Source of the DNA: Halanaerobiales bacterium
GTDB taxonomy: Bacteria > Bacillota > Halanaerobiia > Halanaerobiales > Halanaerobiaceae
NCBI GenBank assembly: GCA_016278485.1
Contig: JADQBT010000029.1
Coordinates: forward strand, 1 to 43,587
Direction: 5' to 3'
Length of the DNA: 43,587 bases
Shown: positions 10,823 to 23,400 of the stretch, one piece after another
How positions within the stretch are numbered: the first letter of the stretch is position 1
How the letters are laid out: each line of letters begins with the position of its first letter
Translations under genes and position numbers: made by a program
The notes under the pieces: model-generated
What the model was told of the DNA's origin: nothing
Databases searched by the model: none
The model's input: the letters and a program-made list of their open reading frames with translations, nothing else

Positions 10823-11167
10823 CTAAAATGTCATAACCTTTCTATCACTTTTAAGATAATCAGTTAAAGGCTCTCCCATATATTTAACCTCGATTCCCAG
10901 CTCTGCTAAATCATCTGCAACACCATACTGATCAGCACAGGCTTTACAGGCTTCAACTTTAATACCTGCTTCGATAAATTCTTTAATCTGTGTCTGCAGT
11001 TCCTGGTCCTTACTTAATAGTTTTGAGGAAGGCCCCCAGACTACAAATTTAATCTCCTGCCACCATCCTCTTTTTTTAGCATTAATCGTGTACATGAAAA
11101 CCATTTTTTCTGCTACTTCCTTATCTCCACTTGTCCATAATATAACCAGACTATCTTCTGCTGCCAT
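10823..11167 (-). CDS. DsrE-family sulfur-relay-like protein
   Basis: A small protein of the DsrE/DsrF-like fold, with VILWTSGDKEVAEKMVFMYTINAKK at the N-terminus and a CKACADQYGV segment. That segment holds the cysteines expected for persulfide chemistry in the family. ATG 11167 is preferred over the TTG nine bases earlier because AAGGAG lies nine bases upstream of the ATG and abuts the TTG; this gives 114 residues. It follows the flavoprotein gene by 26-35 bp on the same strand. Its role, perhaps sulfur transfer or redox signalling with the neighbouring redox proteins, is inferred. Confidence 0.78.
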   Translation of the reverse strand: MAAEDSLVILWTSGDKEVAEKMVFMYTINAKKRGWWQEIKFVVWGPSSKLLSKDQELQTQIKEFIEAGIKVEACKACADQYGVADDLAELGIEVKYMGEPLTDYLKSDRKVMTF

Positions 11168-11202
11168 TTTATTCAACTCCTTATAGTGATAATAATTTAA
11201 TT

Positions 11203-11835
11203 TTAACGTTCTTCTAAAATCGAACCCAAAGTTTTAGCAATTTTGTAGGCTTTTAATTTTATATCTTTCTGTTCTTCAAATTTTAAAGGAAAATGTTCAT
11301 CCTCTATCTTATCTAAAAAGCCATGTCGAGCTACTACCGTCCCAGCTGCACAGTCAATCCCATAACCACAGGTAAAACATTGAGAATAGCCTTCCACCCA
11401 GAGAGTATCAAGTACTGCCATTTTATTTGAATCCATTACTCTTTTAATATATTTAATTACTCCTGAATTAATTTCTGGACCATCAACAGCAATTCCTACT
11501 CCTAATTTACCAGCCAATTTATATTTTTCCAGGTGTCTAAAACAATATGTTCGTTCCAGACAAGCATGTGCAAGAGCATTTAAAGTATCGTAATAATCAG
11601 GTGCCCCAAATATAATGGCATCTGCCTTTAGCATTTTTCGACCTATTTCCTGCCAGTCATCTTCTACTTTACAGAAGCTGTCAGTTGCACATCTGGTACA
11701 GCCAATACAGCCATTAATTTCTTTGCCGGCCAGAGAAACATATTCATATTTCTGACCTGTCTGTTCTAGAATATATTTAACTACATCTGAAGTTGTCCCG
11801 TTAGCTCTACCGCTGCCGCTTATTCCCAGAATCAA
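11203..11835 (-). CDS. Iron-sulfur flavoprotein (NADPH-dependent FMN reductase family)
   Basis: A 210-residue flavodoxin-fold protein. The FMN-binding loop is GISGSGRANGTTS at the N-terminus. A cysteine cluster GCIGCTRCATDSFC (about residues 42-55) is the compact motif of iron-sulfur flavoproteins of anaerobes, which move electrons between ferredoxin and FMN. More cysteines occur at CFTCGYGIDC. The start is TTG with GAGGTG five bases upstream. It lies 72 bp downstream of the selenoprotein gene and just before the DsrE-like gene, forming a redox cluster. The electron donor and acceptor cannot be named. Confidence 0.87.
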   Translation of the reverse strand: MILGISGSGRANGTTSDVVKYILEQTGQKYEYVSLAGKEINGCIGCTRCATDSFCKVEDDWQEIGRKMLKADAIIFGAPDYYDTLNALAHACLERTYCFRHLEKYKLAGKLGVGIAVDGPEINSGVIKYIKRVMDSNKMAVLDTLWVEGYSQCFTCGYGIDCAAGTVVARHGFLDKIEDEHFPLKFEEQKDIKLKAYKIAKTLGSILEER

Positions 11836-11907: not shown

Positions 11908-12465
11908 CTATTTATGTTCAACTTCCAGTTCTATTCCAAGACCATCAGCTGTTCTATTAACATAATTAAAATAGGCAACAACCTGATTTAAATCCAGGAT
12001 ATCTCTGTCACACAGCTCAACTTCTCTTAATCTATCCAGATCATCTTTTTTTACTGCTGCTGGCTTTTTAGTCAGTTTAACTGCATAATCCAGCATTGCT
12101 TTTTCTTTCTTGCTGATTGGTGCTGATTTATTATCATCTAAAATACCACTTAATACTTTATCTGCATGCTCATCATCCCTAATCAACTTTTGGAGCGCCG
12201 CTCCATGATGTGTTATTCAGTAATGGCATTCATTGACATCAGACACTACAGTTGCTATCATTTCTCTCTGCTTGCGAGAAATATTTGATCTGGCAAACAT
12301 AATAGTTTTATAGATCTTGAGATGATCCTCTAAAAGATTAGGATTTAAAGATTGAACTTTTAAAACATGTGCAACCTCATTTTTACCTGACTGGGTTAAT
12401 TTATCATAAAGTTTAGCTAATTTACCCTCTGCTTTGTCTTCATCCACCATATCTATCCAGGCCAT
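11908..12465 (-). CDS. Selenocysteine-containing peroxidase-related/AhpD-like protein (UGA at residue 83)
   Basis: An uncharacterised peroxidase-related protein of the carboxymuconolactone decarboxylase/AhpD family (TIGR01926-like), read through an in-frame TGA at 12219-12217. Upstream residues include AHVLKVQSLNP and RKQREMIATVVSDVNECHY; downstream ITHHGAALQKL continues the family alignment without a shift, then DRDILDLNQVVAYFNYVNRTADGLGIELE. The family site is CxxC followed by HH: here it is Cys80-His-Tyr-UGA83-Ile-Thr-His-His, so TGA replaces exactly the second catalytic Cys. A perfect hairpin follows 11 bases later. ATG 12465 (GGAGG eight bases upstream) is preferred over the GTG at 12474. 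The full product is 185 residues, normal for the family. Expected role: thiol/selenol-dependent peroxide reduction. Requires Sec machinery elsewhere in the genome. Confidence 0.85.
12191..12205 (-). promoter_or_regulatory. Bacterial SECIS-like hairpin
   Basis: On the minus strand TGGAGCGGCGCTCCA forms a six-base-pair stem with a GGC loop. It starts 11 bases after the in-frame TGA and lies inside the coding frame, which is where bacterial SECIS elements sit. The exposed G in the apical loop also fits them. Confidence 0.75.
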
Positions 12466-12497
12466 TATTTTCACCTCCTTTTTAACTCAGATTAATT

Positions 12498-12509
12498 TTA
12501 TCCGAGTTT
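12498..12509. promoter_or_regulatory. shared motif, candidate Rrf2 operator (selenoprotein unit)
   Basis: AAACTCGGATAA on the minus strand, within a TTAA-flanked AT-rich setting 33 bp upstream of the selenoprotein start. The identical 12-mer occurs at 19088-19099 upstream of the opp operon head. Binding by the adjacent Rrf2 protein is inference. Confidence 0.5.
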
Positions 12510-12574: not shown

Positions 12575-12982
12575 CTATTTGATTTCAGGATCAATAATAT
12601 CTTTAATAGTTGTCCGCTCAAGTTCAGCCAGCATTTTTTGATAGCCCTTCCCAAATACACGATGGATTTTACATCTATCCTTAATTCTACAGTTATGAAC
12701 ATCATCTACACATTCAAAGATATTTTCCTTAGCTTCAAAAAGTTGCATTATCTGAGCCAGGTTGATCTCTTCTGCATCTCTACTTAAAGTATATCCTCCT
12801 TTTTTTCCTTCAGCAGAACTTACAATTCCAGCTGCTGATAACTTCTGCATTACCTTTGCCAGATAAGATGAAGACACATTTTCTCTATCTGCTAACTCTT
12901 TTAATGGAAGTTCTTGCTTTTTATTTCTGGCCAAAATCATTAAAGCATGGACTGCATAATCTGTTTTTCTTGAAGTTTTCAT
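12575..12982 (-). CDS. Rrf2-family transcriptional regulator with cysteine motif
   Basis: A 135-residue winged-helix regulator. The N-terminal SRKTDYAVHALMILARNK and SSSYLAKVMQKLSAAGIVSSAEGKKGGYTLSR blocks are the Rrf2 signature. The C-terminal part has three cysteines in FECVDDVHNCRIKDRCKIH, as in iron-sulfur-binding members such as IscR and NsrR, so an oxygen-, NO- or cluster-sensing role is likely. It lies 32 bp after oppF and just upstream of the selenoprotein unit. The repeated AAACTCGGATAA element at both units makes local regulation plausible. The effector is not known. Confidence 0.88.
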   Translation of the reverse strand: MKTSRKTDYAVHALMILARNKKQELPLKELADRENVSSSYLAKVMQKLSAAGIVSSAEGKKGGYTLSRDAEEINLAQIMQLFEAKENIFECVDDVHNCRIKDRCKIHRVFGKGYQKMLAELERTTIKDIIDPEIK

Positions 12983-18480: not shown

Positions 18481-19056
18481 CTATCTATATTCTGGATTTG
18501 GATGATCAAAGCTGCAGCCTGCATCCCAGGCACTGCGCTGATTTCCGTAGGCAGTAATTCCATCATTTTCTTTAAGCATTTTGGCCAGATGCATTAAATT
18601 CCAGGTCATAAAGGTTGTATTTCTCTGGGTAAAATCATTTTCCGGTCCACCTGAATTTTCATCTAAATAGGAAGGCCCTGGTCCAACTGCACCAATCCAG
18701 CCTGCATCTACCTAAGGTGGGATAGTAAAACCAAGATGCTGCAGAGAATAGAGAATCTCCATTCCACAGTGTTTAATTCCATCTTCATTTCCAGTAACTA
18801 TACAGCCTCCTGCTCGTCCATAATAAGCATACTGACCTTTATCATTGAGTTCTCCTGATTGTCCATATAATCTCTCAATTACCCGCTGGCAGACTGAAGT
18901 TATTTCCATAATTGCCTTTGCTACATCCATTAAACCTCTTGTATTTGAGGTCTGTGGTGATTTTTTTAAAGTACAGTTGATAAATAAAGCCTTTAAATCA
19001 GAAAAATCTTCGCTATTTTCTTCACATAGCCTAATTTGTTTTTCATTTAACTCCAT
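18481..19056 (-). pseudogene. Decayed NAD(P)H-dependent FMN reductase/flavodoxin-family gene
   Basis: The frame starts at ATG 19056 with GGAGG upstream and reads LKALFINCTLKKSPQTSNTR, a typical FMN-reductase N-terminus. About 50 family residues (the loop through the ADI..GTPIWLG region) are missing between AIMEITSV and CQRVIERLYG. The frame then meets TAG at 18714-18712, right after LGFTIPP. Reading on in the same frame gives VDAGWIGAVGPGPSYLDE and ends AWDAGCSFDHPNPEYR with its own stop at 18483-18481, exactly the family C-terminus. One nonsense change plus one in-frame deletion therefore mark a pseudogene. It is the former first gene of the opp operon, 29 bp ahead of oppA. Confidence 0.8.
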
Positions 19057-19087
19057 TTTTCAGCCTCCTCATTAACATAGACATTTA

Positions 19088-19099
19088 TTATCCGAGTTT
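19088..19099. promoter_or_regulatory. shared motif, candidate Rrf2 operator (opp operon)
   Basis: AAACTCGGATAA on the minus strand, 32 bp upstream of the decayed flavoprotein gene that heads the opp operon. Identical to the 12-mer at 12498-12509, and both have TTAA six or seven bases before it. Confidence 0.5.
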
Positions 19100-19736: not shown

Positions 19737-20436
19737 AATTCAATAGCTTGCTTTTTGTAGTCTGAAATTGGACTTTCAGTCTCCTAGTTAACGGAGTGGT
19801 AATTGTAAGAGCACCTCCTGGCACCCAGCACCACCTTGTGCAGTTCCTTTCAGTCTCCTAGTTAACGGAGTGGTAATTGTAAGGTTATGGAACAAAACGC
19901 ATAAATACAAATTTGATAAATACTTTCAGTCTCCTAGTTAACGGAGTGGTAATTGTAAGGTGATAAAGCCGATGATCCCGGACGTGAAGAGAGACTTTCA
20001 GTCTCCTAGTTAACGGAGTGGTAATTGTAAGATTAATTTTTTTCGATTCATTGTCAGCAACTGACTTCCTTTCAGTCTCCTAGTTAACGGAGTGGTAATT
20101 GTAAGAGAGTTCCTGAAGAGATACTCTGGAACATTCACCAGCTTTCAGTCTCCTAGTTAACGGAGTGGTAATTGTAAGTTCTGGAAGTTCTGGCTTCCCC
20201 GGAACATTTCCATCGCTTTCAGTCTCCTAGTTAACGGAGTGGTAATTGTAAGGACATTTTTTTATTTACTCGCTAAAAATCAATATTTACTTTCAGTCTC
20301 CTAGTTAACGGAGTGGTAATTGTAAGTAGAGGCTGGTTGCATGTATATGAGACACCTTTTCGGCCTTTCAGTCTCCTAGTTAACGGAGTGGTAATTGTAA
20401 GGAAGATGAAAACTTTATATTGGCTGGCAAGTCAAT

Positions 20437-20479
20437 CTTTCAGTCTCCTAGTTAACGGAGTGGTAGTGGTAATTGTAAG
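20437..20479 (-). repeat. expanded 43-bp CRISPR repeat
   Basis: This eleventh repeat from the left carries a tandem duplication of GTGGTA, making GGAGTGGTAGTGGTAATT. The stem and the ACTGAAAG tag are untouched; the extra six bases fall in the repeat part that becomes the 3' side of the neighbouring crRNA. Confidence 0.95.
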
Positions 20480-23400
20480 AATATGACTAAAGAAATTAAT
20501 AATTGGGCAGAGGCAGCCTTTCAGTCTCCTAGTTAACGGAGTGGTAATTGTAAGAGGCAATATGTGATATTTTCTATATATATAATAAGGTCTTTCAGTC
20601 TCCTAGTTAACGGAGTGGTAATTGTAAGTTGAAAATTATTGCGAACGACGCGGTGATTATTATGTCTTTCAGTCTCCTAGTTAACGGAGTGGTAATTGTA
20701 AGCTTTGGATCTCCATTAATGTGGTGGACTATCTCATCCTTTCAGTCTCCTAGTTAACGGAGTGGTAATTGTAAGTGTAAATTGCTTGACAATGACTAAA
20801 ACGTCATATATAACTTTCAGTCTCCTAGTTAACGGAGTGGTAATTGTAAGTTACTCTGTCATCATGATAACCAGTAGGAGCACCTGCTTTCAGTCTCCTA
20901 GTTAACGGAGTGGTAATTGTAAGTGCATATTATATCTAGTTTATAGCTGATTTTATATCCTTTCAGTCTCCTAGTTAACGGAGTGGTAATTGTAAGAAAA
21001 CCCCGTCATATCAGACGTTAACAGAACATAGAGATAGCTTTCAGTCTCCTAGTTAACGGAGTGGTAATTGTAAGGTTAGAGGAAATGATGGACCCGATTA
21101 GCGAGAAAGCGCTTTCAGTCTCCTAGTTAACGGAGTGGTAATTGTAAGGCTGTACCTAATGTTGGATGGATTGCAAGAAGGTTACCTTTCAGTCTCCTAG
21201 TTAACGGAGTGGTAATTGTAAGTAAAGAAATTAAATTAATTATGTTTGACAAAAAACAACTTTCAGTCTCCTAGTTAACGGAGTGGTAATTGTAAGCCTG
21301 GTCAGTTAAGGATGAAGCTTCTGGTGAATTGAGAATCTTTCAGTCTCCTAGTTAACGGAGTGGTAATTGTAAGGAGAGACTAAATGCTGACATTACTCGG
21401 AATACTTCTAGCTTTCAGTCTCCTAGTTAACGGAGTGGTAATTGTAAGGGAACGTTATGTTTCGTGTTAGGAGCAATCATGAGCAGCTTTCAGTCTCCTA
21501 GTTAACGGAGTGGTAATTGTAAGGTTATTAGAGAATTGACAAGTGATAAAGCAAGTTGTAGCCTTTCAGTCTCCTAGTTAACGGAGTGGTAATTGTAAGT
21601 ACCTGCTGGGCTAATGTCCAGCAGGTTTTTGTATAACTTTCAGTCTCCTAGTTAACGGAGTGGTAATTGTAAGTCCAAGATTTTTTACCTCTCTTTCCCA
21701 AATTCTTGACCTTTCAGTCTCCTAGTTAACGGAGTGGTAATTGTAAGGCAGTTTACAAACTGCTGTTCATAGTAAGAAGAAAACTTTCAGTCTCCTAGTT
21801 AACGGAGTGGTAATTGTAAGCTTTGCAAGCATAGGATATAAGCTCCTGAGTCATGTATCTTTCAGTCTCCTAGTTAACGGAGTGGTAATTGTAAGTCTCT
21901 GAGACCTTCTCCCAGCATACCATAGTTTTCTCTTTCAGTCTCCTAGTTAACGGAGTGGTAATTGTAAGATTCTTTGAGGGTGTTCTCTTGAGATGGAACA
22001 CCCTACTTTCAGTCTCCTAGTTAACGGAGTGGTAATTGTAAGATTAGAAAAAATCGATAATTTAGAAAGAAAACAGGACACTTTCAGTCTCCTAGTTAAC
22101 GGAGTGGTAATTGTAAGTGGAGATAATGATGGAACCTTTGCCAGTTTTACACTTGGCTTTCAGTCTCCTAGTTAACGGAGTGGTAATTGTAAGAGAACAT
22201 GCAGAGAACATGGAATTAGAACAGTTTGTGCCTTTCAGTCTCCTAGTTAACGGAGTGGTAATTGTAAGTTTCCCCATTTTTTATATACTTCATCAACACT
22301 TACAAACTTTCAGTCTCCTAGTTAACGGAGTGGTAATTGTAAGATTGATAGTATTAATCAAGGAAGTGTATTTTTTCCAAACTTTCAGTCTCCTAGTTAA
22401 CGGAGTGGTAATTGTAAGCTGGGGCCCTTGCGACAGGAAAATTAAAATCAATGGGCTTTCAGTCTCCTAGTTAACGGAGTGGTAATTGTAAGGTTATGGG
22501 AATTTGGGTTCAAGAATGTAGTTGCTTTCTTTCAGTCTCCTAGTTAACGGAGTGGTAATTGTAAGATACTTTTGATGGTGAGAAAGTAATAGTCAATCAT
22601 AACTTTCAGTCTCCTAGTTAACGGAGTGGTAATTGTAAGAACTTCTGGATCAATGGGTTTCACTTATGCAAATGCTTTCAGTCTCCTAGTTAACGGAGTG
22701 GTAATTGTAAGTTAAAAAAGATTTTTGATGTATCAGAACAAGCGATGGCTTTCAGTCTCCTAGTTAACGGAGTGGTAATTGTAAGCCAAAATATTCATCT
22801 ACTAATCCTTCATCAAAATTCTTTCAGTCTCCTAGTTAACGGAGTGGTAATTGTAAGGAGAGAACTACTGGCGGAGTTAGAGGAAATGGGTGCTTTCAGT
22901 CTCCTAGTTAACGGAGTGGTAATTGTAAGGTAACAGTCTTGGTTTCAATTATGACGACGGTGGACTTTCAGTCTCCTAGTTAACGGAGTGGTAATTGTAA
23001 GCTGACAACAAAAAAGAAAAACTAATTAAAGAGATCACCTTTCAGTCTCCTAGTTAACGGAGTGGTAATTGTAAGGTATTAAGTCATGTTTTTCCATTGT
23101 TTTTTAACTTCCTTTCAGTCTCCTAGTTAACGGAGTGGTAATTGTAAGGTGATAACAGATTCCTGGAAGATATCAGGAATACCTTCTTTCAGTCTCCTAG
23201 TTAACGGAGTGGTAATTGTAAGTCATAATTGAAGCCCAGACTGTTACCCAGTACTGCCCTTTCAGTCTCCTAGTTAACGGAGTGGTAATTGTAAGTCATC
23301 ATCAGTTATGTCTGGCCTTTGCATTGAATCATCCTTTCAGTCTCCTAGTTAACGGAGTGGTAATTGTAAGCTCGATAATCAGCTATAGGAATGCCTGTTA

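Follow-up and report, generated by a model that had tools for sequence, protein, structure and literature searches.

A study of the Sargasso Sea described AhpD-like selenoproteins with a CxxU motif in 2005 (PMC1088965), and Table 1 of a 2026 review has the entry "AhpD-like protein, TIGR01926, CxxU" (PMC13188914). The proton relay of AhpD itself runs Glu118-Cys130-His132-Cys133-His137 in M. tuberculosis, and that of P. aeruginosa PA0269 runs Glu36-Cys48-Tyr50-Cys51-His55. The window of 43,587 nucleotides analysed here, a single contig from a Halanaerobiales genome of 2.86 Mb, contains an AhpD-like gene with an in-frame TGA (Table 1).

Table 1. Features of the AhpD-like locus (coordinates within the window)
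Feature	Coordinates	Strand	Remarks
Predicted AhpD-like peroxidase-related selenoprotein gene (TIGR01926)	11908..12465	-	185 codons, Sec at codon 83; ATG at 12465, TAG at 11910-11908
TGA predicted to be read as selenocysteine	12217..12219	-	codon 83, second Cys position of CxxC (C80-H-Y-U83)
Putative bSECIS hairpin core, TGGAGC-GGC-GCTCCA	12191..12205	-	loop begins 17 nt past TGA
Inverted repeat, AACTCGGAT-AAAATTA-ATCTGAGTT	12484..12508	-	directly 5' of selenoprotein gene
Rrf2-family regulator	12575..12982	-	upstream neighbour
ISF-type flavoprotein (FMN_red with C-x2-C-x2-C cluster)	11203..11835	-	downstream neighbour
DsrE-family protein	10823..11176	-	downstream neighbour

Standard translation (table 11) yields two open reading frames in the same frame, 12474-12217 and 12186-11908, of 85 and 92 residues, with nothing but the TGA and ten sense codons between them. 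An earlier note on this DNA had located this split exactly, had foreseen that automatic annotation would report two pieces, and had read them as one selenoprotein. The motif CHY-TGA-ITHHGAAL does continue across the junction in the read-through frame, and alignment with Cys homologues places the TGA, the only one in frame within the gene, at the second Cys of CxxC, as had been claimed. The read-through protein matches the Pfam CMD domain and scored 151.1 bits against TIGR01926 over residues 5-181 (curated cut-off 81.8), in agreement with the family assignment. This match, the Sec machinery of the genome, the bSECIS fit of the hairpin and the TGA kept in sister species all bear out the reading of the earlier note, and the gene is almost certainly a single intact selenoprotein gene with Sec at the UGA. 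Pyrrolysine or another double recoding was considered for three orthologues with an extra TAG; on reading, these were ordinary gene-end stop codons.

The window protein belongs to the same family as the known AhpD-like CxxU selenoproteins (TIGR01926/COG2128) and shares with them the CxxU motif, Sec in the second position and a similar hairpin after the UGA; only the organism and the gene neighbourhood differ. No report of an AhpD-like CxxU selenoprotein in Halanaerobiales was found in the literature searched. NF041238, the AhpD_rel_CFYUT alkylhydroperoxidase-related (seleno)protein, has a related CxxU AhpD domain; the window protein scored 71.7 bits against that model, whose cut-off is 175 bits and whose 357 positions make it roughly double the length, and matches to the related NCBIfam "(seleno)protein" models fell below cut-off.

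Like M. tuberculosis AhpD and PA0269, the window protein has an AhpD core with a Glu/Cys/Cys/His relay, with E68, C80, Y82, U83 and H87 in sequence register with the AhpD proton relay. Sec stands where AhpD has Cys133 and PA0269 has Cys51, and the Tyr between the Cys positions is common to PA0269 and the window protein. In both described proteins the chain as a whole is arranged differently, and PA0269 is also the shorter protein; solved relatives of matching length are 3c1l, 2pfx, 6k40 and 2oyo (E 1e-26 to 7e-23). From the relay register and these relatives, C80 and U83 are expected to form a selenenyl-sulfide centre for peroxide reduction or electron relay. In the mechanism we propose, SelB with Sec-tRNA would bind the hairpin just past the UGA and selenocysteine would be inserted at position 83 of the 185-residue protein. 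Cys80 and Sec83, together with Glu68, Tyr82 and His87, would then form a CxxU selenenyl-sulfide redox centre, most likely for reducing organic peroxides or for passing electrons to a peroxiredoxin or other oxidised partner. Family knowledge makes such a peroxidase or adaptor role probable.

The genes run in the order Rrf2, AhpD(Sec), ISF-type flavoprotein, DsrE on the minus strand. We infer that AhpD(Sec) is under Rrf2 control, and that it most likely forms a small oxidative-stress operon with the genes for the iron-sulfur flavoprotein and DsrE. The Rrf2 protein has a C-x6-C-x5-C arrangement followed by x2-H, which we take to resemble the cluster ligands of IscR. In three Halanaerobium relatives (G008, G010, G011), Rrf2 and AhpD are separated by a glutaredoxin-AhpF/thioredoxin-reductase fusion. 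Downstream of AhpD, G010 has an intact AhpC/TSA protein and G011 a remnant of one. The clustering of ISF, Rrf2 and AhpD(Sec), at times joined by DsrE, extends to other families of the order, with the Rrf2, ISF and DsrE genes at 43-77% identity. Thus, the ISF/Rrf2/AhpD(Sec) core looks older than the AhpF-like and peroxiredoxin insertions in Halanaerobium. Decayed copies of the locus also occur among the relatives: a truncated AhpD in G007 (L039), a broken second copy in G010 (L044/L147), and, in G011 (L131), an intact AhpD whose neighbouring ISF and peroxiredoxin genes are broken.

This neighbourhood bears on whether the Sec protein is a peroxide reducer or a thiol/persulfide redox partner of DsrE and the iron-sulfur flavoprotein. 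The latter is a tentative reading that we consider unlikely. Consistent with it, Rrf2, ISF and DsrE recur in the other families where neither the AhpF-like reductase nor the peroxiredoxin has a close homologue nearby, and the window genome itself lacks close homologues of the glutaredoxin-AhpF fusion and of AhpC/TSA (best 38% and 33-34% identity). However, the AhpF fusion directly upstream in the three Halanaerobium relatives and AhpC/TSA downstream in two of them point to peroxide metabolism. A stronger version, in which Sec-AhpD, ISF and DsrE would make up a dedicated Rrf2-controlled module, with the CxxU protein shuttling electrons between the flavoprotein and DsrE instead of serving as a general peroxidase, is more doubtful still. 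We retain peroxide reduction, or electron transfer to a peroxiredoxin or other oxidised partner, as the preferred role.

The inverted repeat directly upstream of the selenoprotein gene reads AACTCGGATaaaattaATCTGAGTT (= AACTCGGATAAAATTAATCTGAGTT) when written whole. With up to 3 mismatches to the symmetric pattern allowed, it was itself the sole match genome-wide. It is identical in G011 and altered in G010, and in G024 a similar repeat lies 5' of the gene that opens the cluster. We propose it, as a lead, as a candidate Rrf2 operator. A weaker copy of the repeat (3 mismatches) is present at 19074-19098 (-), just 5' of a short ORF at 18712-19056 (-) that has no Pfam match and looks like a decayed flavoprotein gene. 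Elsewhere in the window, 58 or more CRISPR-type repeats (CTTTCAGTCTCCTAGTTAACGGAGTGGTAATTGTAAG) form a long array with a spacing of about 74 nt, extending from about 19699 to at least 23887 (+), with a small internal duplication in one repeat near 20430-20490.

If the UGA is decoded as Sec, the genome should carry the corresponding machinery, and the search for selA, selB, selC and selD that the earlier note had proposed recovered all four: selA (591 bits), selB (377 bits), tRNA-Sec (61.7 bits, also called by ARAGORN) and selD (L045, 377 bits), the last with an in-frame TGA of its own. Judged by gene content, the Sec-decoding trait of the genome is complete. Glycine reductase-type genes occur in the vicinity of tRNA-Sec, selB and selA; one of them (L018 14780-15985 (-), near selAB) also has an in-frame TGA, and this gene and selD are probable further selenoproteins of the genome. 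Among the 20 genomes with the UGA form, a full selB was undetected in G026 (95% complete) and G051 (57% complete), and only a fragment was found in G043. The resulting co-occurrence with selB (17/20 UGA-form genomes vs 24/41 others, Fisher p = 0.046) carries little information, since selB is present in most of the 61 genomes.

The hairpin that the earlier note had reported 11 bases past the TGA, with six pairs and a G-containing loop, is present at that distance, at 12205-12191, as a perfect 6-bp stem closing a GGC loop. An Rfam scan of the gene returned only chance matches below gathering scores and no match to a SECIS family, so the comparison with published bSECIS constraints was made by hand. 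These constraints are a stem of 4-16 bp, a loop of 3-9 nt with G in the first two positions, a distance of 16-37 nt from the UGA and an MFE of -7.5 kcal/mol or lower, and the hairpin agrees with all four (6 bp, GGC, 17 nt, -8.2 kcal/mol). The hairpin exceeds chance expectation. When the region was recoded 200,000 times for an unchanged protein, with codons drawn as in the neighbouring genes, only 0.076% of trials gave a 6-bp Watson-Crick stem at exactly this position, and 0.64% gave a SECIS-like hairpin anywhere within the permitted range. Both Ala codons of the hairpin are GCG, the rarest Ala codon in the neighbouring genes (13/272). The overall fold of the 66-nt region was unremarkable (z = -1.1), and since this stability was not significant it was left out of the evidence.

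What speaks for the hairpin as a bSECIS is instead its position, its conservation and its covariation. At the SECIS place, 55/63 UGA forms vs 6/34 Cys forms had a stem of five or more pairs; a few distant UGA forms had no clear stem there. Across 49 distinct UGA sequences, a 7-pair stem was paired in 84.5% of cells, vs 32-51% in a slid control, and 28 cells carried double changes. Prominent among the compensatory changes were C-G to A-U next to the loop and C-G to T-A at the base. None of 2000 shuffles reached the observed pairing (0/2000), which is not a strict probability because the 49 sequences are related; the slid control, which preserves relatedness, agrees with it.

We identified 20 orthologues in 61 related genomes (the window's own included), the others being 46-91% identical, and the TGA is at the same codon in 20/20. 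The nearest named relative in the searches was Halanaerobium saccharolyticum, with a 91% identical protein. In a wider tree of 98 homologues there were 65 UGA and 33 Cys forms (the stem counts above differ slightly because two scripts applied different motif filters), and the two classes were strongly clustered, with 5 changes on the tree vs 27.7 expected. Further UGA forms came from scanning GTDB contigs and spread over many phyla, in groups that include Bacillaceae, Planctomycetota, Gemmatimonadota, Acidobacteriota, Chloroflexota and Neomarinimicrobiota. Plasmid records held only distant homologues, all below 60% identity. Two relatives carry a UGA form together with a Cys paralogue (L042 in G020, L043 in G026), and the fold can thus do without Sec. 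Past the TGA, dN/dS was 0.07-0.12, much like the 0.03-0.10 ahead of it; between the window gene and three Halanaerobium orthologues it was 0.04-0.06 before and 0.09-0.11 after. These low values indicate that the downstream part is translated and constrained.

The decoding of UGA inherently pits Sec insertion against termination, and the codon might accordingly serve as a selenium- or growth-dependent switch, with an 82-residue product made regularly and the full-length protein only in part. Such a switch is very improbable, however: the cut falls between two catalytic residues, which would leave the 82-residue product without a CxxU centre, and residues downstream of the TGA are conserved throughout. 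The idea of an ordinary AhpD-like gene cut by a nonsense mutation, as a pseudogene or through sequencing error, accords with the two pieces of standard annotation and with the decayed copies in G007 and G010, but the same TGA in every orthologue and in 65 of 98 homologues from many phyla, with persisting purifying selection past it (dN/dS about 0.1) and a compensatory hairpin, refutes it, and on the sequences compared we regard pseudogene, frameshift and sequencing error as excluded for practical purposes. Unrelated lesions in sister species, which the earlier note had named as grounds for refutation, were not seen among the orthologues.

The earlier note had considered this peroxidase-related branch worth recording. 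As the TIGR01926 CxxU form is already catalogued (PMC13188914), that view is weaker than the selenoprotein reading, and the finding amounts to the correct annotation of a further member of a known family. No mention of selenoprotein, AhpD and Rrf2 together was found in our literature search, with most subscription journals lying outside it, and the neighbourhood may thus be previously unreported. What is added is modest: the recurring neighbourhood, the insertion of an AhpF-like reductase and a peroxiredoxin in Halanaerobium relatives, and the single-occurrence inverted repeat.

The general picture of Sec biology is unchanged by this finding. An annotation of two truncated proteins is corrected to one predicted selenoprotein gene, which extends the selenoprotein set of an anaerobic halophile lineage whose genome also uses a TGA inside selD and probably in a glycine reductase gene. 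This CxxU AhpD-like selenoprotein is conserved across several families of the order, in part together with Rrf2, ISF and DsrE, and the neighbourhood offers a concrete place for testing the function of uncharacterised CxxU selenoproteins.
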